44,310 nucleotides of DNA from Kofleriaceae bacterium (GTDB lineage Bacteria > Myxococcota_A > Polyangia > Haliangiales > Haliangiaceae): the NCBI GenBank assembly GCA_013368795.1, contig JABFXX010000372.1:1-44310 (forward strand), read 5' to 3'. The position numbers were made by a program, and so were the translations under genes. Every line of letters starts with the position of its first letter. Within the stretch, counting starts at the first letter, position 1. Below are positions 5,062 to 40,996 of this stretch, piece by piece. A model generated the notes under the pieces. It had not been told where the DNA came from. It worked only from the letters and a program-made list of their open reading frames with translations, and did not search any database.

Positions 5062-8000
5062 CTACGGTCGAGGCTCCCCTTGGCTTCCTCTCCGCCGGAG
5101 CCGGCCGAGCTGCGTCTTGACCCGGTCGGCGATCACGTAAAAGGCCGGAACGACATAGAGAGACAGCAGGGTCGACAGGATCAGGCCGCCCAGGACGGCG
5201 ATTGCCATCGGCCCGCGGGTCTCCGAGCCCTCGCCCAGGCCGAGCGCGGCCGGGACGGCGGCCATCATGGTCGCGGTCGCGGTCATGAGGATCGGCCGCA
5301 GCCGGACCGGTCCCGCCCGGCGCATCGCCTCCAGGGCGTCGACCCCTTCGTGGGCGCGGACCTCGTTGGCGTAGTCGACCAGCATGATCGAGTTCTTCTT
5401 GACGATGCCCATGAGGAGCAAGAGGCCGATCATCGAGAACACGTTGAGCGTCCGCCCGGTCACGAACAGCGCGGCCATCGCACCCGCGAGCGAGAGCGGC
5501 AGGATCGTCAGCACGGTGACCGGGTGGAGCAGCGAGTTGAACTGCGATGCGAGCACCATGTAGGCGAACGCGATGCCGATCACGAGCGCGAAGATGAGGC
5601 TGCTCATCGCATCGCCGAAGTCCGAGCTCTGGCCCGAGAGCTTGATCGAGTAACCGACGGGCAACTCGCTGCGGAGTCCGGTCACCGCGGCAAGCGCCTC
5701 GCTCTGCGAGCGGCCCGGCGCGACGTTGCCGGTGATGCGGATCGCGCGCTGGCGGTTCATGTGATTGATCGTCTGCAGCGCGGGTCGCTCGGTCGCGTTG
5801 ACGACGCTCGACAGCGGGACCAGGTCGCCGGCGGCCGAGCGCACGCGCAGCCGCTCGAGGTCTTCGGGACGCGTGCGCTGCGACGCGAGGAGCCGGACGC
5901 GGATATCCATGCGCCGGCCCGCGGTCGAGTACTGGCCGATGATCGTGCCGCCGATCAACGCGTTGACCGTCTGCGCGATGTCGCTGACGTTGACGTTGAC
6001 GTCGGAGGCACGCGCGCGGTCGGGCGCGATCGCGAGCTCCGGCGGGCCGAGGTCGTAGTCGGAGTCGACGTCGACGACGAGGCCGGATGCCTCGAGCTCG
6101 GTCTGCATCTTCCTCGACAGACCGATCAGCTGATTCCAGTCGTTGCCGGTGATGCGGAAGTCGATCGGCCGGCCTCGGCCACCGGTGAACGCGGCCTGCG
6201 AGAGGTCCTGGATCGAGGCCTTGATGCCGGGAATCGCGGCGAGCTCGCGGCGCAACTTCGCGGATAGCTCGAGCTGCGTCAGCTTGCGGTCGTGGGGCGG
6301 GACGAGCGTCAGCGACATGCGCGCCTGGCCGAGCATCGTCGTCGTCAGGATGCGCTCGACCTCGGGATGCTTCGCGATCGCGTTCTCCGCCTGCTTGACG
6401 AGGCGATCGGTCTCGTTGAGGTCCGAGCCGACCGACGTGATGAGGCGGATCTGGAGCCGGCTCTGGTCCTGCGACGGCACCATCTCCTGATCGAGGCTCT
6501 TCGCGAGCCACAGCGAGCCCGCGGTCAGCGCGACGGCGCCGGCGAGCACGAGGAGCGGAACGCGCAGCGCGAGCTTGAGCGTGGCGCCGTAGGCGCGCGT
6601 GAGCGCGGCGAAGCCTCTCTCGACGATCGCGCCGAGGCCGGTGCGGCCATGCGACGAGACGTTCAGCATCTGCGCGCAGCGCGCGGGTGCGAGCGTGATC
6701 GCCTCGATGTACGAGATGCCGACGGCGACCGAGAGCGTGACGCCGAACTGCAGGAAGTACTTGCCGATGACGCCATCCATGAACGCGACCGGCATGAAGA
6801 TCGCGATCACCGCGATCGTCGCGGCGAGCGCGGCGAACGTGATCTCCTTCGTGCCCTCGCTCGCGGCCTTCTCGCGCGACTTCCCCATCTCGGCGTGGCG
6901 GTAGATGTTCTCCATCACCATGACGGCGTCGTCGACGACGAGGCCGACCGAGAGCGACAGCGCGAGCAGCGTGAACGTGTTGAGCGTCCAGCCGAGGAAG
7001 TAGATCACCGCGATCGTGCCGAGCAGCGACATCGGGATCGCGAACAGCACGTTCATCGTGCTCGACAGCGAGCCCAGGAAGACCCAGCACACGAGCGCGG
7101 TCAGGACGACGGCGAGCACGAGCTCGATCCCGATCTCGTCGACGGACTCCTCGATGAACTGCGTCGTATCGAACAGGACCTCGACCTTCATGCCCTCGGG
7201 CAGCGTCGACTGGATCTCGTTGCACGCCTCGCGCACGGCCTTGGCGACCGAGACCGCGTTCGCGCCGGGCTGCTTGAGCACGCCCATCGCCTGGACCGGT
7301 GTGCCGTTCGAGCGCGCGACGTTCGTGACGTCGACGAATCCGTCCTCGACGAGCGCGACGTCCCCGATCCGGATCACCGCCGAGCCGACCTTCTTGATCA
7401 CGATCTCGCGGAGCGTCTGGAGATTGGACGCTTCGCCGATCACGCGGATATCGATCGCGCGCTGGCCATTCGTCATCTGGCCGCCCGACGACGTCACGTG
7501 CTGGCGCTGGAGCGCCTGGATCACGTCGCCAACGGTCGTGCTCGTCGCGAGCAGGCGGTCGGCGTCGACCCAGATGCGCACCGAGCGATCGAGGTAGCCC
7601 TGCATCTCGACCTGGCCGACGCCTTCGATCGTCTGGATCGCGTTCGCGAGCTGGTAGCGCGCGACGTCGGCGAGCAGCTGGCGCGAGAACGGGCCGGAGA
7701 CGCCGATCGTGATGATCGGCGTGTCGTCGGGGTTGCTCTTGGACACCGTCGGCGGCTCGACGCCCGTCGGCATCCGGCGCTGGATCTGCGCCAGCTTGCC
7801 CTGGATGTCCTGCACCGCGAGGTCGATGTCGCGATCGATACTGAACTCGGCAGTGATGCGCGCCGAGTTGTGGCGCGCCTGCGACGTCGTCTGGAGCACG
7901 CCGGTCACCTGCGAGATGACGTCCTCGACCGGCGTGATGATGCCGTTCTCGATGTCCTCGGGAGACGCGCCCGGCCACGACACGTTGACGCTGACCGTCG

Positions 8001-8127
8001 GCTTGTTGACGTCGGGGAACTGACTCACGCCGATCCGCTGGATCGCCACGAGGCCGAACAGGATCGTGCCGAACATCAGCATCCACGCGAACACGGGACG
8101 CCGCAGGCAGACGTCGGTCAGGTTCAC
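5062..8127 (-). CDS. RND efflux pump inner-membrane transporter, HAE-1 (AcrB-like) family
   Basis: The GTG start at 8127 gives 1021 residues, the normal length for AcrB-type pumps. The open frame continues upstream only as a shadow of the adaptor gene. It begins NLTDVCLRRPVFAWMLMFG, the usual first helix. The proton-relay aspartates are D399-D400 in the TM4 motif GLVVDDAVMVMEN. A relay-type lysine lies in GIVKKNSIMLVDYANEVR near the C-terminus. Two duplicated halves with large periplasmic porter loops are evident. It should export drugs, dyes or lipophilic metabolites with the adjacent adaptor and TolC-like channel. The GTGA overlap with the adaptor stop at 8124-8127 indicates translational coupling. 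Substrate range is not predictable. Confidence 0.96.
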   Translation of the reverse strand: MNLTDVCLRRPVFAWMLMFGTILFGLVAIQRIGVSQFPDVNKPTVSVNVSWPGASPEDIENGIITPVEDVISQVTGVLQTTSQARHNSARITAEFSIDRDIDLAVQDIQGKLAQIQRRMPTGVEPPTVSKSNPDDTPIITIGVSGPFSRQLLADVARYQLANAIQTIEGVGQVEMQGYLDRSVRIWVDADRLLATSTTVGDVIQALQRQHVTSSGGQMTNGQRAIDIRVIGEASNLQTLREIVIKKVGSAVIRIGDVALVEDGFVDVTNVARSNGTPVQAMGVLKQPGANAVSVAKAVREACNEIQSTLPEGMKVEVLFDTTQFIEESVDEIGIELVLAVVLTALVCWVFLGSLSSTMNVLFAIPMSLLGTIAVIYFLGWTLNTFTLLALSLSVGLVVDDAVMVMENIYRHAEMGKSREKAASEGTKEITFAALAATIAVIAIFMPVAFMDGVIGKYFLQFGVTLSVAVGISYIEAITLAPARCAQMLNVSSHGRTGLGAIVERGFAALTRAYGATLKLALRVPLLVLAGAVALTAGSLWLAKSLDQEMVPSQDQSRLQIRLITSVGSDLNETDRLVKQAENAIAKHPEVERILTTTMLGQARMSLTLVPPHDRKLTQLELSAKLRRELAAIPGIKASIQDLSQAAFTGGRGRPIDFRITGNDWNQLIGLSRKMQTELEASGLVVDVDSDYDLGPPELAIAPDRARASDVNVNVSDIAQTVNALIGGTIIGQYSTAGRRMDIRVRLLASQRTRPEDLERLRVRSAAGDLVPLSSVVNATERPALQTINHMNRQRAIRITGNVAPGRSQSEALAAVTGLRSELPVGYSIKLSGQSSDFGDAMSSLIFALVIGIAFAYMVLASQFNSLLHPVTVLTILPLSLAGAMAALFVTGRTLNVFSMIGLLLLMGIVKKNSIMLVDYANEVRAHEGVDALEAMRRAGPVRLRPILMTATATMMAAVPAALGLGEGSETRGPMAIAVLGGLILSTLLSLYVVPAFYVIADRVKTQLGRLRRRGSQGEPRP

Positions 8128-9329
8128 TGTGCGCTCCCTGCCCCCGACCCGACGGTGACCGCGGGCGCCGAACCGAGCGCGGCCGAGCCCTCTGTCGGCG
8201 CGCTGTCTGCGACCGCGGCCTTCGTCGCGGCCTCGAGCGTCAGCGTCGACTTGATCTTCACCGGCGCGCCGTCGCTGAGTGGCTCGATCCCGCGCACGAC
8301 CATCGTCTCGCCGGCCGCGACGCCGCTGCGCAGCTCGACGCCACCCTCGGGGGTGCGCATCCCGAGCATCACCGGGCGCGCGTGCGCGACGTTCTTGTCG
8401 TCGACGATGTAGACGAGGTTGCCGTTCTCCGTCGGCGAGACTGCGAGCGACGGCACGACGATGCCCGCGCGCGCATCGCCGATCGGGATCGTGACGACGC
8501 AGAACGCGCCCGGCCGCAGGTAGTAGTCGTGGTCGGTCGGCTCGAGCTGCGCGGTCACCGGAACCATGCGCGTCTGCGGATCGGCCGCATCGGCGACGAG
8601 CGTCAGCTTCGCAGTGAACTCGCGCTGGCTGCCCTTGAGCTGGATCGTCGCCGTCATGCCCGTCTTGAGCCGCGGCGCATCGAGCTCGGTGACCTGGAAC
8701 CGGAGCAGCAGCGGCTCCTTCTGCAGGATCGTCGCGAGCACCGTGCCGGGCTGCAGGTACTGGCCCTGCTGGACCGTGCGCGTCTGGACGACGCCGGCGA
8801 TCGGGGCGCGCACCGACGACTCGCGGAGGTTCAGCTCGGCGACGCGCAGCGCCTGGTGTGCGGCCTCGACGTCGGCCTTCGCGGTGTCGACCGCGGTCTG
8901 CTTCTGCTCGATCTCCTCGCCGGGCACGAGGCCGGGCGACGCCTCCTGCGCCTTGAGGCGGCGCTGTAGCGCGGCCTCGGCGGCACGCTGGGTCGCCTGC
9001 GACTTGTTGTAGGCCGCCTGCGCCTGTGCGACCGCGATCTGGTAGCGCGCGCTCTCGATCACGACGAGGACGTCGCTCGCCTTGACGGTCTGGCCCTCGA
9101 CGAACGCGACCTTGTCGACGGCGCCGGCGACGCGCGCCGTGATCTGCACCTGCTGGAACGCTTCGATCGAGCCAGGCGCGGACACCGTGTACCTCACCTC
9201 GCGCGACTCGAGCTTCGCGACGTCGACGGGGTACTCGAGCTTGCGCCCGCCGCGCTTCTTCCCCTCGCTGCTTCCACCCTTCGAGCACGCCGCGATCGCG
9301 AGCGCGATCAGGATCAGCCGAGCCTTCAT
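8124..9329 (-). CDS. RND periplasmic adaptor (HlyD/AcrA-like membrane fusion lipoprotein)
   Basis: This 401-residue protein starts with a lipoprotein signal (MKARLILIALAIAAC, lipid Cys at 15). It then shows the membrane-fusion order: a beta strand and split lipoyl half (VSAPGSIEAFQQVQITARVAG, EGQTVKASDVLVVI), a helical hairpin rich in Ala/Gln (about 95-170), and the second lipoyl half (LRESSVRAPIAGVVQTRTV). Beta-barrel and membrane-proximal domains follow, ending in a low-complexity Ala/Gly/Ser/Pro tail. It bridges the pump and the outer-membrane channel. The ATG at 9329 overlaps the TolC-like stop (ATGA at 9326-9329), and its own TGA overlaps the pump GTG, so the three genes form one translationally coupled operon. 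Confidence 0.93.
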   Translation of the reverse strand: MKARLILIALAIAACSKGGSSEGKKRGGRKLEYPVDVAKLESREVRYTVSAPGSIEAFQQVQITARVAGAVDKVAFVEGQTVKASDVLVVIESARYQIAVAQAQAAYNKSQATQRAAEAALQRRLKAQEASPGLVPGEEIEQKQTAVDTAKADVEAAHQALRVAELNLRESSVRAPIAGVVQTRTVQQGQYLQPGTVLATILQKEPLLLRFQVTELDAPRLKTGMTATIQLKGSQREFTAKLTLVADAADPQTRMVPVTAQLEPTDHDYYLRPGAFCVVTIPIGDARAGIVVPSLAVSPTENGNLVYIVDDKNVAHARPVMLGMRTPEGGVELRSGVAAGETMVVRGIEPLSDGAPVKIKSTLTLEAATKAAVADSAPTEGSAALGSAPAVTVGSGAGSAQ

Positions 9330-10588
9330 TTGCCCTCCAACGGATCGAGCCCCATCGCGAGACGCAGGGACAGGTACGCGCGCGCGACATCGAACTCCGA
9401 CGACGCGTAGTTCACCTCGGCATTGAATCGCTGGTCGTTGGCGTCGACGAGCTCGATCGCCTTCGCGAGGCCCTGGCGGTACAGGATCAACGCCTCGTCG
9501 GCGCCCTTGCGTGCTGCATCGCGTGCGGTGCCCGCGGCGGTGAGCGCCTGTTGCCGGCTCGCGAGCAGCAGAGCCGCGGCGCGGATCTCCGCCTCGATCG
9601 AGCGCTGCAGCTGCGACGCCTCGAGATCGAGGATCCGCGCGCGCGCATCGCGTGCCTTCGCATCGGCCGACCGCGCGCCCGAGTCGAACAGCGTCCAGCG
9701 CGCGCTGATCGCGACGAGCGCGTCGAGCGTGTTGCCGCTGAGCGGCGCATTCGTGGTGGCCGCCACCTCGGCGCCGAGCTGGACCGACGGCAGGTAGCGC
9801 ATCTTCGGCTCGCGTGCCGATTCGTGCGCGGCGCGCGCGAGCTCCTTATCGGCGACGAGGTCGAGCCGCTGCGATGTCCCGTTCGCGATCACGTCGTCGG
9901 TGACGACGAACGGCGCGCGCCCGGCCGCGAGCAGGCCCGCCGGCGGCGCGAGGCCGGCGTCGATCCGCGTGTTGAGGAGCAGCTCGAGATCGATATACGC
10001 CGCCTGGAGATTGCCCTGGCTCGCCGCGAGCTCGCGCGCCGCGGTCGAGAGGTTGATCTGCGCGCGCGTCACGTCGTTGCTGCTGACGAGCTGCGCCTTG
10101 AACTGGGCGTCGGTCGTATCGAGGTTGGTCTTGGCGGTATCGAGCTTGCGCTGCGCGGCCTGGGCGACCTGGTCGGCGAGCAGGACCGTGAAGAACGCGC
10201 TGGCGGCGTCGAACGCGAGGCGGCGCCGGTCGTCGATCCGCTGCGCCTTGCCGGCCGCCAGCTCGTGCTTGGCCTGGCTATGTAACGGGAATGCCGAGGG
10301 ATCGAAGATCGGCTGGGACAGCGCGATGCTCGCCTCGGCGACCGTCCCCGGGTCGTTGCGGGGCCGAAACGCGACCGTCCCCTGGCTGTCGACCAGCGGC
10401 AGGAACCGGGTGCGCGCCAGCGCGAGGTTGGCTTCCGCAATCGAAACATCGAGATCCGCGATCGACGCCCGCTCGTTGCGGGACATCGCGAGCTCGATGG
10501 CCCGGTCGAGGGTCAATGGGCCCTCGGCACGGGCGGTACCGGGCGCGGCGACAAACCATGCCGCCACGGCCACTTCCAGGACCTTCAT
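9326..10588 (-). CDS. TolC-like outer-membrane efflux protein (OMF family)
   Basis: The product is a 420-residue precursor with a signal peptide (MKVLEVAVAAWFVAAPGTARA, cleavage likely after TARA). A duplicated OMF pattern follows: LTLDRAIELAMSRN opens the first repeat, and long Ala/Gln/Leu/Asp-rich amphipathic helices alternate with short strands. The C-terminus reads ARAYLSLRLAMGLDPLEGK, a normal OEP ending. It should trimerise into the outer-membrane exit duct for the downstream adaptor and pump. It is the first gene of the leftward operon, and its promoter must lie in the 117-nt gap shared with the divergent collagen-like lipoprotein. The length is near normal for TolC relatives. Confidence 0.93.
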   Translation of the reverse strand: MKVLEVAVAAWFVAAPGTARAEGPLTLDRAIELAMSRNERASIADLDVSIAEANLALARTRFLPLVDSQGTVAFRPRNDPGTVAEASIALSQPIFDPSAFPLHSQAKHELAAGKAQRIDDRRRLAFDAASAFFTVLLADQVAQAAQRKLDTAKTNLDTTDAQFKAQLVSSNDVTRAQINLSTAARELAASQGNLQAAYIDLELLLNTRIDAGLAPPAGLLAAGRAPFVVTDDVIANGTSQRLDLVADKELARAAHESAREPKMRYLPSVQLGAEVAATTNAPLSGNTLDALVAISARWTLFDSGARSADAKARDARARILDLEASQLQRSIEAEIRAAALLLASRQQALTAAGTARDAARKGADEALILYRQGLAKAIELVDANDQRFNAEVNYASSEFDVARAYLSLRLAMGLDPLEGK

Positions 10589-34350: not shown

Positions 34351-36576
34351 GTGATCGGCTCGCCGGTCACCCGGATCGATGGCCCGCTGAAGGTCACCGG
34401 CACCGCGACCTACTCCGCCGAAGTGTGGGACGTCGGCCAACCGCTGTACGGCTCGATCGTCGGCGCACCGATCGGTCACGGACGGATCGTCGCGATCCAG
34501 ACCGCGCGGGCCGAGGCATCGCCCGGTGTGCAGCTCGTGTGGACGTATCGGAACGCGCCGCCCCAGCACGCGCCCGACGAGTCCGCGAAGGGGCTCGGCT
34601 ACAGCTGCCCGTACCCGGTGCTCTGCTCTGCCGAGATCCAGCACTACGGAGAGCCGGTCGCGTTCGTCGTCGCCGAGACGGCCGAGCAGGCTCGCACCGC
34701 GGCATCGCTCGTCGAGCTCGCGTACACGAGCACCGAGGGCCACTACGACCTCGCCGCGCGCGAGCCGCATGCATTCGTGCCGGAGACCGTGCAAGGAGGG
34801 TTCGTCGCCGCGGAGAGTAGCGTCGGCGATCTCGAGGCCGCGTTTGCCGCCGCGCAGGTCCAGATCGACCAGCTCTACACGACACCGTACGAGATGTCTC
34901 AGGCGCTCGAGCCGCACAACACGCTCGCGGTGTGGAACGGCGACAAGGCGACGGTCTACGTCAGCACGCAGTCGGTCGCGTGGGCACACGCGCGGATCTG
35001 CTCGACGCTCGGCGTGCAGCCCGAGCAGATCGAGATCGTCGCGCGGTACGTCGGCGGCGGCTTCGGCTCGAAGCTCGGTGTTCACGCCGACGCGATCCTC
35101 GCGGTGCTCGCGGCACGCGCGCTCGCGAGACCGGTCAAGGTCGTGCTCGCACGCCAGCAGGTGTTCCAGCTCGCCGGCCAGCGTCCCGCATCGCGGCAGC
35201 GGGTTCGGCTCGGCGCGACCGCCGACGGTCAGCTCACCGCGTTCGGCCACGACGTGACGATGAAGGCGAGCTACCGGGGCGACTACATCGAGGACACCGC
35301 GGCGAACGGACGCGGCCTGTATGCCGCGCCGAATCGCCACACGACGACGCGCGCGGTCGCGCTGCACTTGCCTGCCGGCGAGGATGTGCGGGCACCGGGC
35401 GATGCTCCCGCCTCGCTCGCGATCGAGTCGGCGATGGACGAGCTCGCGCATGCGCTCGGCGTCGACCCGATCGAGCTGCGGATCCGCAACGAGCCCGAGG
35501 TCCATCCCGAGCTCGGTATCCCGTTCTCGGAGCGCCGGCTCGCCGAGTGCCTGCGGGAAGGTGCGCGGCGGTTTGGCTGGGAGCGACGCCGACCGGCGCC
35601 GGCGAGCGTCCGCGACGGCCAGTGGTGGGTCGGCTACGGCATGGCCGTCGCAATCCGCGGCCACTACCAGGCGCCGACGTCGGTGCGCGTGCTGATCGAG
35701 CCGGATGGCGGTGTCGTCGTCCAGTCCGACATGACCGATATCGGCACCGGTACGTACACGATCCTCTCGCAGGTCGTCGGCGAGGGACTCGGCGTCCCGC
35801 ACACTGCGGTTCGCGTCGAGCTCGGCCGCTCTGCATTCCCGTCGAGTCCCGGCTCGGGCGGCTCGTGGGGCGCGACGAACTCGTGCACGGCCGCGCATCG
35901 CGCATGCACCGCGCTGCGCGCCAAGCTCGTCGCCGCCGCGATCGCGGACCCTCGCTCGCCGCTGCACGGCAAGGATCCGGCCGCGGCGACCGTGGCGAAT
36001 GGCCGCCTCGCGATCGGCGACGCGTCGGAGAGTCTCGCCGAGCTCGTCGAGCACTGCTTCCCGAACGGCGTCGACGCACTCGGCAGCATCGGCGACTTCG
36101 ACGAGGACCCGAACCACAAGGCGTACGCCCTGAACACGTACGGCGCGCAGTTCGCCGAGGTGCGCGTCGATGCGGTCACCGGCGAGGTCCGGCTTTCGCG
36201 CATGCTCGGTGTGTTCGTCGGCGGCCGGATGCTCAATCGCCTCACCGCGCGCTCGCAGCTGATCGGCGGCATGATCTGGGGCGCGAGTGCGGCGCTGCTC
36301 GAGGAAGCGGTCGTCGACACCCGGTTCGGCTCGTTCATCAATCGCGATCTCGCGCAGTACCTGGTGCCGGCGCACGCAGACATCCCCGAGGTCGACGCGA
36401 TCATGCTCGACAGCTTCGACGACAAGGCAAACGAGCTCGGCGCGAAGGGTATCGGCGAGGTCGGCATCTGTGGGGCGGGCGCCGCCATCGCGAATGCCGT
36501 CTTCAACGCGACTGGCGTTCGTGTGAGGGACTTCCCGATTACACTCGAGAAGCTCCTTCCACGACTGCCTCGATGA
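34351..36576 (+). CDS. molybdenum hydroxylase large subunit (xanthine dehydrogenase / aldehyde oxidoreductase, PaoC/YagR-like)
   Basis: The GTG at 34351 gives 741 residues, close to PaoC, and starts at the usual IGSPVTRIDGPLKVTGTATY. Earlier in-frame TTG codons (34222, 34282) would add a non-conserved leader that overlaps the repeat. Molybdopterin contact motifs are present: RYVGGGFGSKLG, the PGDAPASLAIESAMDELAHA segment, and SGPGSGGSWG-like loops. The catalytic glutamate is E703 in GAKGIGEVG. It should hydroxylate an aldehyde or N-heterocycle with Mo-molybdopterin cytosine dinucleotide. The 2Fe-2S and FAD partners that normally precede it are absent here. The TGA overlaps the NADAR start (ATGA). 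Confidence 0.92.
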   Translation: MIGSPVTRIDGPLKVTGTATYSAEVWDVGQPLYGSIVGAPIGHGRIVAIQTARAEASPGVQLVWTYRNAPPQHAPDESAKGLGYSCPYPVLCSAEIQHYGEPVAFVVAETAEQARTAASLVELAYTSTEGHYDLAAREPHAFVPETVQGGFVAAESSVGDLEAAFAAAQVQIDQLYTTPYEMSQALEPHNTLAVWNGDKATVYVSTQSVAWAHARICSTLGVQPEQIEIVARYVGGGFGSKLGVHADAILAVLAARALARPVKVVLARQQVFQLAGQRPASRQRVRLGATADGQLTAFGHDVTMKASYRGDYIEDTAANGRGLYAAPNRHTTTRAVALHLPAGEDVRAPGDAPASLAIESAMDELAHALGVDPIELRIRNEPEVHPELGIPFSERRLAECLREGARRFGWERRRPAPASVRDGQWWVGYGMAVAIRGHYQAPTSVRVLIEPDGGVVVQSDMTDIGTGTYTILSQVVGEGLGVPHTAVRVELGRSAFPSSPGSGGSWGATNSCTAAHRACTALRAKLVAAAIADPRSPLHGKDPAAATVANGRLAIGDASESLAELVEHCFPNGVDALGSIGDFDEDPNHKAYALNTYGAQFAEVRVDAVTGEVRLSRMLGVFVGGRMLNRLTARSQLIGGMIWGASAALLEEAVVDTRFGSFINRDLAQYLVPAHADIPEVDAIMLDSFDDKANELGAKGIGEVGICGAGAAIANAVFNATGVRVRDFPITLEKLLPRLPR

Positions 36577-37034
36577 AGCCCGAACCGCGCACCATCAATT
36601 TCTACAGCGTCAACGCAGAGTACGGAGAATTCTCGAACTTCGCGCTGTATCCGATCACCCTGCGCGGCAAGCGCTGGCCGACGTCGGAGCACTTCTTCCA
36701 GGCGATGAAGTTCGAGAACCGCGGTGACCAGGAGGAGGTGCGCGCCGCGAACAATCCGATGCTCGCCGCGCGCATGGGTCGCGATCGCAAGCGCAAGCTC
36801 CGGCGCGACTGGGAGCGCGTGAAGGTCGGCATCATGCGCGAAGCCGTCGAAGCCAAGTTTCGCCAGCACGAGGAGCTGCGCGCGCTACTGCTCGGCACCG
36901 GCGACGCGAAGCTCGTCGAGCACACCGAGAACGACGACTTCTGGGGCGACGGCGGCGACGGCAGCGGGCGCAACGAGCTCGGCCGCGTGCTCATGGCCGT
37001 GCGCGAAGCGCTGCGCAAGGACGACGACGAATGA
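36573..37034 (+). CDS. NADAR family protein (YbiA-like N-glycosidase)
   Basis: This 153-residue protein has the family pattern: INFYSVNAEYGEFSNFALYP near the N-terminus, WPTSEHFFQAMKF, the RMGRDRK segment, MREAVEAKFRQHEELRALLL, LVEHTENDDFWGDGGDGSG and GRNELGRVLMAVRE. YbiA relatives cleave N-glycosidic bonds in riboflavin-pathway intermediates, and some NADAR proteins remove ADP-ribose from guanine. Which substrate applies here cannot be told. The ATG at 36573 overlaps the molybdoenzyme stop (4 nt), so the two are co-translated. It abuts the convergent sigma-fusion gene, their stops forming TGATCA at 37032-37037. Confidence 0.92.
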   Translation: MKPEPRTINFYSVNAEYGEFSNFALYPITLRGKRWPTSEHFFQAMKFENRGDQEEVRAANNPMLAARMGRDRKRKLRRDWERVKVGIMREAVEAKFRQHEELRALLLGTGDAKLVEHTENDDFWGDGGDGSGRNELGRVLMAVREALRKDDDE

Positions 37035-40000
37035 TCACTGCGCCGGGCCGAGCACGAGCTCGCCGGTGATGGTCCTCCCGCCTCGCGTCGCCGCGATCTT
37101 CACCTTGGTTCCCGGTGCGCGATTTCGGATGAGCAGGCCGACACCGCCGGCACTGAGCTCTGCGACCGAGGCTCCGTCGACCGCGGTGATCACGTCACCA
37201 TCGACGAACCCGGCGGTCGCGGCCGGTCCGCCCGGTTGCACCTCCACGAGTCGCGGCACGAGCACGGTCGGGTCGAGCGTGGCGCCGATGTCTGCGCGCA
37301 CGCGCAGGCCTTCATTCCACGCAACCACCGGGACGTCGACCTCGAGGCGTTGCCCCGCAGGCAGCGTGAACGTACGCATGCCGTCCGAGTAGAGCGCCGC
37401 GAGCCCGTAACACCAGACCGCGGTGTCGCCGACCGGCGCCTCGAGCACGAATCCGCCCTGCGCGTCGGTATCGACGCCCTCGCCCGGCGCGATCGTCACC
37501 TGCGTGATGCCGGCGCGCGGCAATGCCTGGCACGTCATGCCCTGGATCGGCTTGCCCGAGCGGAACTCGCGCACGCGCCCGGCAACGACGGCCGAGCCCT
37601 TGCTCGTGAGGGTCACCGGCGAGGTCTTTCGCCCGACGACCTCGACGAGCGCGCTCGCGCCTTCGGTCTCGTTGCGCGCGGCGACGAGGTAGCTGCCCGG
37701 TGCGAGGTTGCGAAAGCTCACGACATTGCCTTGCTGCGTGCCCGGCACCGCCGCAGTCGTGCGAGTGATGTCGGTTGGCCGCGCGGTGACCTGCGGCGGG
37801 TTCTTGAATCCGACGATCGTCGCGTCGATCCCGCCCGACGACGGCAACGCGAACACGACGTCTTTGCGTCCCGCGCGGATGCCAGTGAGCGTGCCTTCGA
37901 TCCCGGTCAGCGAACGCGCTCGCAACGCGTACGTGCCCTCGGGCAGCTCGCTGATCGTGAAGCGGCCACCGACGTCGGTCGTGCTCGCCGGTGTCTGGAG
38001 GCTGGGGAAGAACCGCGGCACTGCGTTGCCCTCGACCTGTTCCGCGACGACGCGAACATCAGGCACCGGCGCGCCATCGTCGTCGACGACCGTGCCCGAG
38101 ATCGCCAACCGTTCGAGTTTGACGGCGAGCAGCACGCCGGTCACCTCGGAGTGGCCGTCGGCCAGCGTGACGAGCGGGAACTCGGTACCCGATGCCGGCC
38201 GGAGCGCGGTCTTCGACGGAGTCGCGGTTGGCGTCGCGCTCACCTTGGGCCGATACTGCCCGCCGCCGCTCATCATCGCCGCGCGAAAGCTGCCGTCCAT
38301 CGCGGTCACGCCGAGCCCGATGTCGTCTTGCGACGTGTGAATGAATCCGACGGTCGCGCCGGATACTGGCGCGCCGTTTTGATCGACGACGCGGCCCGAG
38401 ATCGATGCGCCATACTCGAGCTCGATCGTCACGTCCTTCGTTTCGCCGCGCGCGAGCTGAACGATCGCCCCAGCGTCGCCGAACACGCCGAGCTGCTGGC
38501 TGCTCGCTCCGACGCTCCACTGGCCCGGACGCAAGCCGCGCGCGGTGAACCGACCATCTGCATCGGTGCGTACTGGATCGAGCTCGCGTTCGTGCGGCCC
38601 GCTCAGAGACACGGCCGCACCAGAGATCGCATCGCGACCGCGCACGACACGGCCGGTGATCGTACCGAACGCCTCGACCTCGATCACGACGCCGTCGTGA
38701 AGTGGCTCGCTCGCGTGGAAGCTCTGCGGCTTCACGACCTCGTACGGCATCGCCGTGAGCTTCACGTCGCCGCGCGGCACGCCGGTCAGCACGTACGAGC
38801 CATCGTCCTGTGAGAACGCGGTCCGCGAGCTCGCCGCCACCCGTGCGCCGGCGACTGGCTTGCTACCGTCGACGACGGTGCCGCGGAGGGTCGAGCCCGC
38901 CTCGAGCCGGATCTCGATTTCCGCGCTCGTCTGCCCTGCCTCGACGGCGACCGGGACACCGGCCGCATCCGCCAGGCCCTCCGCGCGTGCAGACACGAGG
39001 TGACTGCCCGGCGCGACGCGATCGAGCCGGAAGTGACCGCTTGCATCGGAGAACGTCGCGCGCCATCCCGTCCGCTGGACGACGCCGGGCGGGCCGACGG
39101 GGATCCACACGTAGGCCTGCGCGACGGGCTCGCGCGTATCGTCGCGCACCACGCGGCCGACGATCGTCGCCTCGGGGACGAGCAAGAAGTCGACCTTCAC
39201 GCGCCCGGGTACGATCGCCGTGTACACGATCGTGCCATAGCCCGCGGCCGAGACCTCGACGATCACCGACGGCGGCCACTTCGTCTCGACGCACAGCTCG
39301 TATGCACCGTTCTCGTCGGCAACGGCCGCTGGCCCACCGGGCACGCGGCTCTCGAGATCGAGCCGTGCAATGCGCGCCTTCGCGATCGCGCCGCCCGAGG
39401 CATCGTGCACGGTGCCGGTCATCGCCGCGTCGCACGCACCGAGCGCGAGCTCGAGATGCTCCGGCCGCAGCGTGGGATTGCGCAGATCGACATCGAGCAT
39501 CGCGCTCGAGTGGTGTGCGGCCGACGCGCGAACGCTGAATTCCATCGCCGGCTGTGCCCCGAAGTCGAACTCGCCGCTCGCGCTCGACGTGCGTTGCAGC
39601 GGCACGCCGAGCCCGCTCTCCGTCGCGAGACTCGCGAGCTCGACGGTCGCGCCGGCCACCGGTGCACCGTGAAACGTCACGCGACCGGCGACGCGGCGCG
39701 GCTTCACGTCGGGCTGGATCAGCCACGCGGGTCGGTCCGGATCCGCGCCGAGCACGGTCGGAGCGGTGCCATCTGCATGCACGACGGCGCCGGCCTTGCC
39801 GGGCCCTGCCGTGCGCGCAGCACCGGCATCGCTGCCGCCGCGATGCCCGCGCCAAACGATGGCGCCGACGAGCAGCAAGAGCAGCACGATCGCGACTGCG
39901 ACGAGCTTGGATGTCTTCTGTGCCACGAGCACTCCCTTCGGAATCGCGAGCAGCGGCACCAGCCACTGCTTCCGGCCGCCGCTCTCGGCATCGAGCCCCT

Positions 40001-40469
40001 CGCGCAAGCGATCGAGCGCGGTCTTCAGCCGCCAGCGAACGGTGCTGGCCGGTACGCCCTGCTGTCGCGCGATGGTCGCGAGCGGTACGCCTTCGCAGAA
40101 ATGAAGCAACACGGTCGTGCGGTACGGCTCGTCGAGGCGCAGCACGAGCTCGACGAGCTTGCGCTGGGTCTCGGCGCGCGCGACCAGCACGTCCTGGGTC
40201 GGAACATCGTCGCCCTCGATGAGCAAGGTCGCCTGCTCGCGCGCGGTGCGCCGTCCCTCCCCGCGCGCCCGCATGCGCAGCCGGTTGAGCATCACCTTCG
40301 CGAGCCACGACTTCGCAGACTCGCTGCGCTCGGGCGTACGCCGCATCGTCGCGATCCACGTGTCCTGCACGAGGTCGTCGGCGATGTCGCTGTCGCGAAC
40401 GAGGCGCAGGGCGAGCGCGCGCAGCCATCCGGCATGCACGAGCAGCTCCTCTGCGCGTCGGTCGCTCAT
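37035..40469 (-). CDS. membrane-tethered ECF sigma factor fused to carboxypeptidase-regulatory-like repeats and a PDZ domain
   Basis: The 1144-residue chain starts with an ECF sigma factor: sigma2 at about 8-75 (DSDIADDLVQDTWIATMRR, WLAKVMLNRLRMRA) and sigma4 at about 103-158 (LRLDEPYRTTVLLHFCEGVP, then ASTVRWRLKTALDRLRE). Basic residues precede one transmembrane helix (about 188-206, LVAVAIVLLLLLVGAIVW). About 930 exported residues follow. Around eight carboxypeptidase-regulatory-like beta-sandwiches each open with a [ST]-I/L-x-G-x-V motif (RVAGRVTFHG, TIVGRVVRDD, TLRGTVVDGS, SISGRVVDQNG, AISGTVVDDDG). A PDZ domain ends the protein (about 1062-1142, VEVQPGGPAATAGFVDGDVI). The frame is unbroken, so this is one protein as read. 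The start has no strong Shine-Dalgarno. There is no separate anti-sigma gene. Confidence 0.9.
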   Translation of the reverse strand: MSDRRAEELLVHAGWLRALALRLVRDSDIADDLVQDTWIATMRRTPERSESAKSWLAKVMLNRLRMRARGEGRRTAREQATLLIEGDDVPTQDVLVARAETQRKLVELVLRLDEPYRTTVLLHFCEGVPLATIARQQGVPASTVRWRLKTALDRLREGLDAESGGRKQWLVPLLAIPKGVLVAQKTSKLVAVAIVLLLLLVGAIVWRGHRGGSDAGAARTAGPGKAGAVVHADGTAPTVLGADPDRPAWLIQPDVKPRRVAGRVTFHGAPVAGATVELASLATESGLGVPLQRTSSASGEFDFGAQPAMEFSVRASAAHHSSAMLDVDLRNPTLRPEHLELALGACDAAMTGTVHDASGGAIAKARIARLDLESRVPGGPAAVADENGAYELCVETKWPPSVIVEVSAAGYGTIVYTAIVPGRVKVDFLLVPEATIVGRVVRDDTREPVAQAYVWIPVGPPGVVQRTGWRATFSDASGHFRLDRVAPGSHLVSARAEGLADAAGVPVAVEAGQTSAEIEIRLEAGSTLRGTVVDGSKPVAGARVAASSRTAFSQDDGSYVLTGVPRGDVKLTAMPYEVVKPQSFHASEPLHDGVVIEVEAFGTITGRVVRGRDAISGAAVSLSGPHERELDPVRTDADGRFTARGLRPGQWSVGASSQQLGVFGDAGAIVQLARGETKDVTIELEYGASISGRVVDQNGAPVSGATVGFIHTSQDDIGLGVTAMDGSFRAAMMSGGGQYRPKVSATPTATPSKTALRPASGTEFPLVTLADGHSEVTGVLLAVKLERLAISGTVVDDDGAPVPDVRVVAEQVEGNAVPRFFPSLQTPASTTDVGGRFTISELPEGTYALRARSLTGIEGTLTGIRAGRKDVVFALPSSGGIDATIVGFKNPPQVTARPTDITRTTAAVPGTQQGNVVSFRNLAPGSYLVAARNETEGASALVEVVGRKTSPVTLTSKGSAVVAGRVREFRSGKPIQGMTCQALPRAGITQVTIAPGEGVDTDAQGGFVLEAPVGDTAVWCYGLAALYSDGMRTFTLPAGQRLEVDVPVVAWNEGLRVRADIGATLDPTVLVPRLVEVQPGGPAATAGFVDGDVITAVDGASVAELSAGGVGLLIRNRAPGTKVKIAATRGGRTITGELVLGPAQ

Positions 40470-40528
40470 CGCTTCTATCTTGCTTCATGCCGCCCGCGCG
40501 CAGACCGACGGCACCGACGCGAACTTTT

Positions 40529-40996
40529 TCAGACCCGCGAGCTGCCGATCCGGGGGTCGTCCTCGGCGCGGACGTAGTCGACGCCCAGCGGGCCCATGGC
40601 CGTCACCTGCGTGATGTACTCGCCGGACTTCGCCCAGTGAAAGTGCGCCGTGTTGCCGGGCAGGACGATCACCGCCCCCGGCGGATATGCCTCGAGCTTT
40701 CCGGAATCGAACGACTCGCCGAGGCCGATGTAGAAGATGCCGGAGAGGACCAAGTAAACCCGGTCCTCGGGATGCTTGTGTGGCAGCAACTTCACTCCGC
40801 GCGGCACCTTGACCCGGACTACGTAGAGGCCGTTCTCCGAGGGCTGCCCGGCCACGATCGCGAGCCGAACCGACGCCGGGAACGCGGCGAACGGCTTCCA
40901 TTCGATGTCCTCCGACAGGATCGCCCGGAATGCCTCGAGGCCTGGCTGGTGGGGTCTCGCTGGCTGCCTGGCGTCCGCCGTTTGCTCGTGTGACAT
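40529..40996 (-). CDS. cupin domain protein
   Basis: The 155-residue protein holds one cupin barrel: motif 1 as LPHKHPEDRVYLVLSGIFYI and motif 2 as PPGAVIVLPGNTAHFHWAKS. Two His of motif 1 with Glu, and the His of motif 2, could bind a metal. The region before the barrel (EWKPFAAFPASVRLAIVAGQ) resembles ChrR-type or sensory cupins. There is no HTH domain. It starts 6 nt after the DJ-1 family stop on the same strand, so the two are one operon. A dioxygenase, isomerase or ligand-binding role is possible; the substrate is unknown. Confidence 0.88.
   Translation of the reverse strand: MSHEQTADARQPARPHQPGLEAFRAILSEDIEWKPFAAFPASVRLAIVAGQPSENGLYVVRVKVPRGVKLLPHKHPEDRVYLVLSGIFYIGLGESFDSGKLEAYPPGAVIVLPGNTAHFHWAKSGEYITQVTAMGPLGVDYVRAEDDPRIGSSRV

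Follow-up and report, generated by a model that had tools for sequence, protein, structure and literature searches.

A membrane-tethered ECF sigma factor family of Myxococcota and Planctomycetota with a probable nested, sigma-less sensor

The gene studied here lies at positions 37035-40469, on the minus strand, of contig JABFXX010000372.1 from a Kofleriaceae bacterium (assembly GCA_013368795.1); the whole stretch analysed, 44,310 nucleotides long, is called the window. The gene encodes an extracytoplasmic function (ECF) sigma factor joined in one chain to a membrane helix and a large outside region. We propose, with a probability of about 0.6, that it is a one-gene signalling system, in which a tethered sigma-sensor is accompanied by a nested sensor without sigma, the sigma half being released and the short form acting as a buffer. 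This proposal rests on a ribosome-binding site and start codon which recur directly before the membrane helix in many members of the family. The elements of the gene are as follows (L numbers below denote loci).

37035..40469, minus strand: whole gene, ECF sigma - juxtamembrane helix - membrane helix - beta-sandwich array - PDZ, 1144 amino acids (open reading frame, Pfam, AlphaFold2)
40251..40436, minus strand: sigma region 2, residues 12-73 (Pfam Sigma70_r2, 5.5e-10)
39999..40163, minus strand: sigma region 4, residues 103-157 (Pfam Sigma70_r4_2, 1.1e-6, residues 103-155; Sigma70_r4, 1.2e-5, residues 112-157)
39948..39974, minus strand: juxtamembrane helix, residues 166-174, WLVPLLAIP region (AlphaFold2 helix 166-174)
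39932..39936, minus strand: internal Shine-Dalgarno-like GGGAG within the coding sequence (linker DNA, family tests)
39924..39926, minus strand: putative internal start (GTG, codon 182) of a membrane-anchored product lacking sigma (linker DNA, family tests)
37035..39926, minus strand: putative nested short product of 963 amino acids, membrane anchor and outside region, no sigma (from the internal start)
39849..39911, minus strand: membrane helix, residues about 187-207 (hydropathy 2.79; AlphaFold2 helix 190-207)
37326..39698, minus strand: CarboxypepD_reg beta-sandwich array, residues 258-1048 (Pfam PF13620, 8 stretches, 1e-63; strands in the model)
37062..37292, minus strand: PDZ domain, residues 1060-1136 (PDZ_2, PF13180, 3.4e-8)

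An initial annotation, made from the letters of the window, had described a single intact frame with ECF regions sigma2 and sigma4, one hydrophobic helix, about eight CarboxypepD_reg repeats and a PDZ domain. The open reading frame, which starts with ATG, the Pfam matches, the hydropathy profile and an AlphaFold2 model bear this description out. NCBIfam TIGR02937 confirms the ECF membership with 60.7 bits, above its cut-off of 42.9, and the closest solved sequences to the sigma head are ECF factors, including sigma-H of 6in7, SigK and RpoE. Membrane helices were called by hydropathy: the only strongly hydrophobic 19-mer of the protein is residues 187-205 (mean hydropathy 2.79), and a second, weaker peak (1.62) falls at about residue 402, within the beta-domain. 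The model, built from 25 rows, has a mean predicted local distance difference test score of 74.7 and a predicted template modelling score of 0.56; it comprises the two sigma domains, helices 166-174 and 190-207, a segment of very low confidence (206-244) and beta-strands throughout 258-1048, and its PDZ end is poorly modelled, with low confidence. The PDZ region weakly matches that of DegQ in sequence (E 0.0027). In alignments, the W and the L-x-P of the juxtamembrane helix recur across the family, and the linker from sigma4 to the membrane helix takes about 27 residues in the window protein and up to about 65 in relatives. With the full model, the best 50 Foldseek matches listed gave no functional lead for the outside region, the nearest being beta-sandwich surface proteins and pilins with low template modelling scores.

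The source genome is a fragmented draft of 9.8 Mb in 723 contigs, a state which could favour an assembly or sequencing artefact fusing two genes, and the initial annotation had named such a joining error, or the lack of a predicted helix, as what might undo it. Both are excluded. The genome holds 11 distinct loci with the same sigma head, the window's included, all of which continue in frame into a membrane helix (3 are cut off by a contig end); L025, a weaker twelfth locus, likewise has a helix. Counterparts of the window gene with 55% identity across the full length are present in two genomes of the same genus. The same chain recurs across many genomes; one of them, a complete planctomycete chromosome, has 17 family matches, of which 16 were read, all 16 with a helix. 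More widely, a transmembrane-like 19-mer (hydropathy at least 1.63) was found at residues 155-258 in 84/84 long relatives, two of them duplicates; a helix-like 19-mer reached at least 1.5 in 34 of 35 further relatives (lowest 1.36) and at least 1.6 in 52/52 held-out planctomycete members. From these shared chains we conclude that the window gene is a genuine fusion, we reject the joining error, and the probability left to an artefact is practically negligible.

Judged from profile matches, the family is large and present in both Myxococcota and Planctomycetota; the initial annotation had supposed fusions of this kind elsewhere in Myxococcota, which holds true, and they are abundant in Planctomycetota too. 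In a sample of the window's class, at least 46 of 289 genomes match at 1e-38 or better, all such counts being lower bounds with nine candidates scored per genome. A profile search of genome contigs gave at least 80 loci, chiefly from the two phyla, followed by ordinary ECFs of Bacteroidota and relatives. When six genomes were searched at 1e-30, we counted 17 matches (complete chromosome of Planctomycetes bacterium Pla86), 1 (Paraliomyxa miuraensis), 43, 20, 35 and 11, including a few short or cut frames; a single 6.3-Mb genome can thus hold up to 43.

We observed a Met immediately ahead of the helix in 51/82 members, against 20 expected from Met frequency, often with GGAG preceding it; members without this Met often have a Val encoded by GTG instead, as does the window gene. 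The test required a Shine-Dalgarno (SD) core of at least 4 nt, spaced 4-11 nt before an in-frame ATG, GTG or TTG, within codons -22 to +6 of the helix. As a null, synonymous codons were redrawn from the same gene with the protein kept, in 200 draws. This statistic was fixed after the pattern had first been noticed in the discovery set and was left unchanged for the held-out sets.

The discovery set (n = 82) was freed of duplicates (L010 and L026, equal to L021 and L008; L062 and L064, equal to L037 and L039), of frames below 300 amino acids (L053, L060, L061, L077 and the lone sigmas of L091 and L104) and of weaker or displaced cases (L025, the second gene of L093, L112). For the held-out set of the window's class (n = 35), 39 regions were chosen from a longer list and the duplicates L141, L144, L146 and L171 removed. 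The held-out planctomycete set (n = 52) came from two of the six genomes, minus the duplicates L287 and L299, with 38 of the 43 matches of genome G291 taken (three of the five left out were earlier loci) and 16 of the 17 of G289 (the other was L103). Nine further loci, fetched separately, entered no statistical test.

The internal SD and start were found in 52/82 members of the discovery set (null 9.4 ± 2.8, maximum 17), in 19/35 from held-out genomes of the class (3.9 ± 1.6, maximum 8) and, in the two held-out planctomycete genomes, in 20/36 (5.7 ± 2.2, maximum 13) and 6/16 (1.1 ± 1.0, maximum 5). Over all members the count is 97/169 against 20.1 ± 3.8 (maximum 32). Among the first 117, both phyla contribute, with 43/69 in Myxococcota (null 6.4) and 25/40 in Planctomycetota (6.5), next to 3/8 in others (0.9). 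The excess persists when relatives are thinned to less than 60% identity (74/135 versus 16.8, maximum 27), 50% (38/80 versus 8.8, maximum 15) and 45% (20/43 versus 4.4, maximum 10). Codon choice at the site goes the same way: GGA encodes 39% of linker glycines versus 12% of tail glycines, Val after GGAG is written GTG in 29/41 cases versus 136/328 elsewhere, and an in-frame ATG is preceded by an SD in 47/97 cases in the linker, compared with 19/197 in the sigma part and 74/782 in the tail. The excess and the codon choice indicate that selection acts on an internal ribosome-binding site and start. On a quick tree of 129 rows, the internal SD requires at least 26 changes of state. Since the internal SD and start exceed the synonymous null and replicate in the held-out sets, the gene probably encodes two proteins, one a tethered sigma-sensor and the other a sensor lacking sigma. 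The single product assumed by the initial annotation does not sit well with this conserved site, which points to a second, sigma-less one.

A one-product reading, in which an ordinary one-component tethered ECF sigma factor is freed by regulated intramembrane proteolysis and the SD-like sequence before the helix has no function, would fit the architecture and topology, and has precedents in IutY and ECF52 as described in section 16 of PMC8999054. It is nevertheless rather unlikely: it leaves unexplained the excess over a null which preserves the protein, in discovery and held-out sets alike, as well as the fact that relatives of the window gene (L001, L028, L029, L055) retain SD and start despite changed linker residues, and that ATG, GTG and rarely TTG all serve at the site.

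Several observations weigh against two products. By the test used, 72/169 members have no internal SD, a count that also favours the one-product reading. At less than 40% identity the excess is no longer clear (6/17 versus 2.2, maximum 6), and the stand-alone sigma-less relative L020 has no SD at its start. Three members of the clade (L091, L104, L183) are without a clear helix. Within the window gene, ordering the 79 in-frame start-like codons by anti-SD energy places the internal GTG no higher than a tied 4th; the single gene is therefore not decisive, and the case rests on the family.

Pausing of ribosomes at SD-like sequences has been proposed, and the site directly precedes a membrane helix, so that it might be a programmed pause aiding helix insertion instead of a start. 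We consider this very unlikely. Among membrane kinases of the source genome, the signal was seen in 1/14 versus a null of 0.43, a small control in which 14 of 30 loci were usable; and in the family, GGAG in the linker is followed within 4-11 nt by an in-frame ATG or GTG in 67/87 cases, versus 154/1364 elsewhere in the same genes, a comparison of related sequences whose p value is not independent.

The site also marks the border between modules, the tails are modular, and a stand-alone sigma-less relative (L020) exists in the source genome; the internal start could then be a now-neutral relic of two translationally coupled genes, sigma and membrane sensor, which merged after loss of a stop. This is highly improbable, as retention at less than 45% identity and in two phyla needs present selection. 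Moreover, no split version, with a stop between sigma and sensor, was found in a small search of nine short-case regions plus L091 and L104. Of these short cases, L180, L181 and L185 end at contig ends, a stretch of unknown bases interrupts L182, the L184 copy is damaged, L183 is complete with 250 amino acids, L187 has an ordinary long tail, and L186 and L188 repeat L170 and L100. At L184 (genome G001, contig C360), the sigma head is out of frame with an apparent tail end, which makes it a damaged or misassembled member.

The start of the sigma half looks different from the internal one. An SD precedes the sigma start (the ATG nearest the profile start) in 9/86 members, versus 55/86 for the internal start, and in 4/52 held-out planctomycete members. 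Upstream of the genes, the top-ranked word pair, CAAC-N15..19-GGCA, occurs in 18/80 regions versus 0.4 expected. A two-block promoter model, GCCAACRC-N11-GCGGCA, matches 38/86 upstream regions in-sample and 1/86 on the reverse strand, with fixed spacing in 35 of the 38 and an end 2-17 nt before the ATG in 36 of them. Refined on Planctomycetota, it matches 21/39 Myxococcota (0.39 expected, reverse strand 2), and 19 of these matches lie 2-17 nt from the ATG; the model refined on Myxococcota matches 6/47 others (0.47 expected, reverse 0). None of 32 soluble ECF genes match. Promoter and internal SD tend to co-occur (27/34 versus 28/52, p 0.02). The window gene has a partial copy:

40484..40512, minus strand: partial copy of the family promoter (GCCGTCGG-N11-GCGGCATGAA), 14 nt before the ATG, with the -10 block retained and a degenerate -35 block

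These matches suggest an ECF-type promoter shared by many members, chiefly in Myxococcota, and, because the members themselves share the promoter type, self-activation. As it lies so close to the ATG, the leader would be very short or absent, and in many members the mRNA that yields the long form is probably leaderless or nearly so.

Here too some results count against our interpretation. Soluble ECF genes of the same loci, mostly from Bacteroidota, have an SD in 1/19 cases; the weak sigma start is thus not special to the family, since soluble ECF genes also rarely carry one. The promoter cross-validation began from seeds and spacing learned on all 86 upstream regions and is not fully independent. 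In two further planctomycete genomes, an independent test apart from a few loci used earlier, the promoter was found in only 3/52 new members (about 0.5 expected), all 7-12 nt from the ATG. The window gene's own copy is below threshold. Lastly, a regulon search of the source genome with two patterns yielded no target genes: the first gave 71 matches, close to the 46 of a backward control, and the second 45 versus 8, but in the 30 loci read these were, besides family genes, mostly coding-sequence or unclear matches. The most promising cluster, on contig C102, was rejected as a target, its sites falling within the coding regions of four lipoprotein-like genes in tandem. These genes (L279:1850-4963) stand beside an orphan PDZ-ended tail of the sigma family, and share a 300-bp core whose copies are 78-86% like the first.

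Taken as a whole, a two-phylum family of nested sigma/sensor genes, with a leaderless sigma start, an SD-equipped internal start, a ratio set by translation, its own promoter type and possibly dozens of copies per genome, seems to us slightly better than an even bet.

In the mechanism that we propose, the long product would be a single-pass inner-membrane protein with the sigma2-sigma4 half in the cytoplasm; a short linker without recognisable anti-sigma domain would lead from it to the helix, and the beta-sandwich domains, here PDZ-ended, would lie outside. Net charge supports the inside-outside arrangement given by the initial annotation: in 62/82 members the flank N-terminal to the helix has a higher net charge than the C-terminal flank, in 8 a lower one. 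The N-terminus of the predicted short form is net positive in 89/97. The second product, read from the internal GTG or ATG just before the helix, would be the same sensor minus sigma. In many members the shared ECF-type promoter would drive transcription, and the gene would activate itself. The topology, and autoregulation in part of the family, are inferred with support. An outside signal reaching the sensor would cause the long form to be cut or reshaped, and the sigma half would join RNA polymerase, its release most likely by intramembrane proteolysis as for IutY. The sigma-less form may dilute or compete with the sigma-bearing one in the membrane, setting a threshold and limiting the self-activation loop. 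Proteolytic release, the task given to the short form, the nature of the signal and the target genes are inferred only.

Instead of being released, the tethered sigma factor could act from the membrane, the outside domain changing only its posture. Activators of the ToxR/CadC type do act from the membrane, and no anti-sigma domain or recurring neighbour gene was seen. A sigma factor, however, has either to stay with RNA polymerase as it moves off after initiation or to detach from it, and we know of no precedent for one acting from the membrane without release; we regard this as unlikely.

The family can be delimited by its sigma part. With a sigma-only profile, sequences above 80 bits have a helix and nearly always a long tail, and those below 78 bits are soluble ECFs, with named exceptions on both sides. 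Above the line these are two lone sigma genes of about 210 amino acids (L091, L104), L061 (hydropathy 1.4, at a contig end) and three short tails (L053 and L060 at contig ends, L077 at a gap of unknown bases); below it, L025 and L026 have a helix but are weaker or partial. The lone short sigma genes of the clade (L091:5926-6603 and L104:3384-4415), which have no helix, lie 0.5-1.5 kb upstream of a full tethered member. On the 129-row tree, Myxococcota (6 changes) and Planctomycetota (13 changes) group far better than in shuffles; many branches are weak, and the soluble outgroup is not on one side of a branch, 2 rows being wrong.

Pfam CarboxypepD_reg is found in 26/29 and 48/55 members in two tallies, and PDZ_2 in 8/29 and 2/55, some members being cut by contig ends. 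The DegS-like PDZ peptide switch suggested by the initial annotation was consequently rejected as a mechanism of the family. At L007 (contig C143 of the source genome) the same sigma and helix head carries a quite different tail of about 200 residues, which we take to resemble the AgmX/TonB C-terminal type; the outside part is therefore modular.

We also looked at the surroundings of the gene. The upstream neighbour is:

40529-40996, minus strand: stand-alone ChrR-type cupin gene, 59 bp upstream of the sigma gene, with no anti-sigma half and no cysteines

It was rejected as an anti-sigma neighbour, being cupin-only, and is unmatched beside the two 55% counterparts. The statement of the initial annotation that no anti-sigma gene is nearby thus holds for the frames scanned. 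The other adjoining frames encode DJ-1/PfpI, NADAR and histidine kinase proteins. When window frames of at least 90 amino acids, from 30 kb on, were compared with the stretches around six relatives, only frames overlapping the sigma gene itself matched, and none of the neighbour families turned up at more than 7 of the 59 family loci compared; their representatives, judged by eye, were antisense-looking, a kinase or a sigma-less tail protein. No TonB-dependent receptor partner was seen in ten neighbouring frames scanned. Within the proteins, no profile matched an anti-sigma domain between sigma4 and the helix, where the window protein has hardly room for one. Neither a zinc-finger anti-sigma (ZAS) domain nor the FecR family, which the extension of the sigma factor IutY resembles, nor WD40 was among the Pfam families listed (the best 25 of 27 for the window protein, 25 of 32 and 25 of 39).

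Elsewhere in the window, a 700-residue frame at 34932-37034 (plus strand) ends in a NADAR domain; the real gene is probably much shorter, converging on the sigma gene. An AcrB-type transporter frame (5062-9390, minus strand) has about 420 residues ahead of its ACR_tran match, for which no Pfam match was found at 0.01; an outer-membrane efflux frame (9326-10588) comes before it on that strand. The source genome contains at least 150 protein kinase matches.

Single-chain membrane-tethered sigma factors were known before from a few groups (PMC8999054, section 16). A family without recognisable anti-sigma part, in two phyla with complex life styles, would amount to a large, as yet unstudied path linking the envelope to gene expression, and may be an unrecognised, common signalling design. 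If the internal start is true, the sigma-to-sensor ratio would be built into the gene, and annotation as a single protein would hide the second product; if the nested reading holds, dozens of private one-gene systems can share one genome.

Among known systems, ECF52 (SCO4117 of Streptomyces), ECF48 and ECF53 resemble the family most directly in that the sigma factor is C-terminally fused to a membrane helix; ECF52 has an outside domain, and proteolytic release has been proposed (PMC8999054; PMC5826349). As described in these papers, they are actinobacterial and carry a ZAS domain, whereas the present family belongs to Myxococcota and Planctomycetota, shows none, and has beta-sandwich arrays outside and a predicted internal start. 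IutY of Pseudomonas putida (ECF243) is a single chain of sigma factor and membrane sensor whose release by Prc and RseP was shown experimentally, the only such demonstration for a tethered sigma factor according to section 16 of the review PMC8999054. Its extension is, by the same section, the membrane anti-sigma factor of a cell-surface signalling system, and no such domain was found here. ECF57, with a model from Singulisphaera, has long C-terminal extensions like the present family and belongs to a phylum rich in it; some members have WD40 extensions, and there is a cysteine pair (PMC8999054). In place of the WD40 repeats described for it, the present family has CarboxypepD_reg repeats. ECF220, ECF276, ECF216 and ECF270 have regulatory extensions of mostly unstudied mechanism, with myxobacterial model members in Table 2 of PMC8999054, and the family may fall within one of them.

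PDZ sensors of the DegS/DegQ type have a trypsin-like protease domain before PDZ, unlike the window protein, for which none was among the best 25 of 27 Pfam families listed. In searches of the open-access literature we found no description of a CarboxypepD_reg-sigma fusion and no example of an internal start in a sigma factor gene. Conserved in-frame internal starts, with an internal SD and start codon, give nested products in cheA (long and short forms), clpB and cas8-cas11; like these, the present family would make two nested products, here predicted, from one gene.

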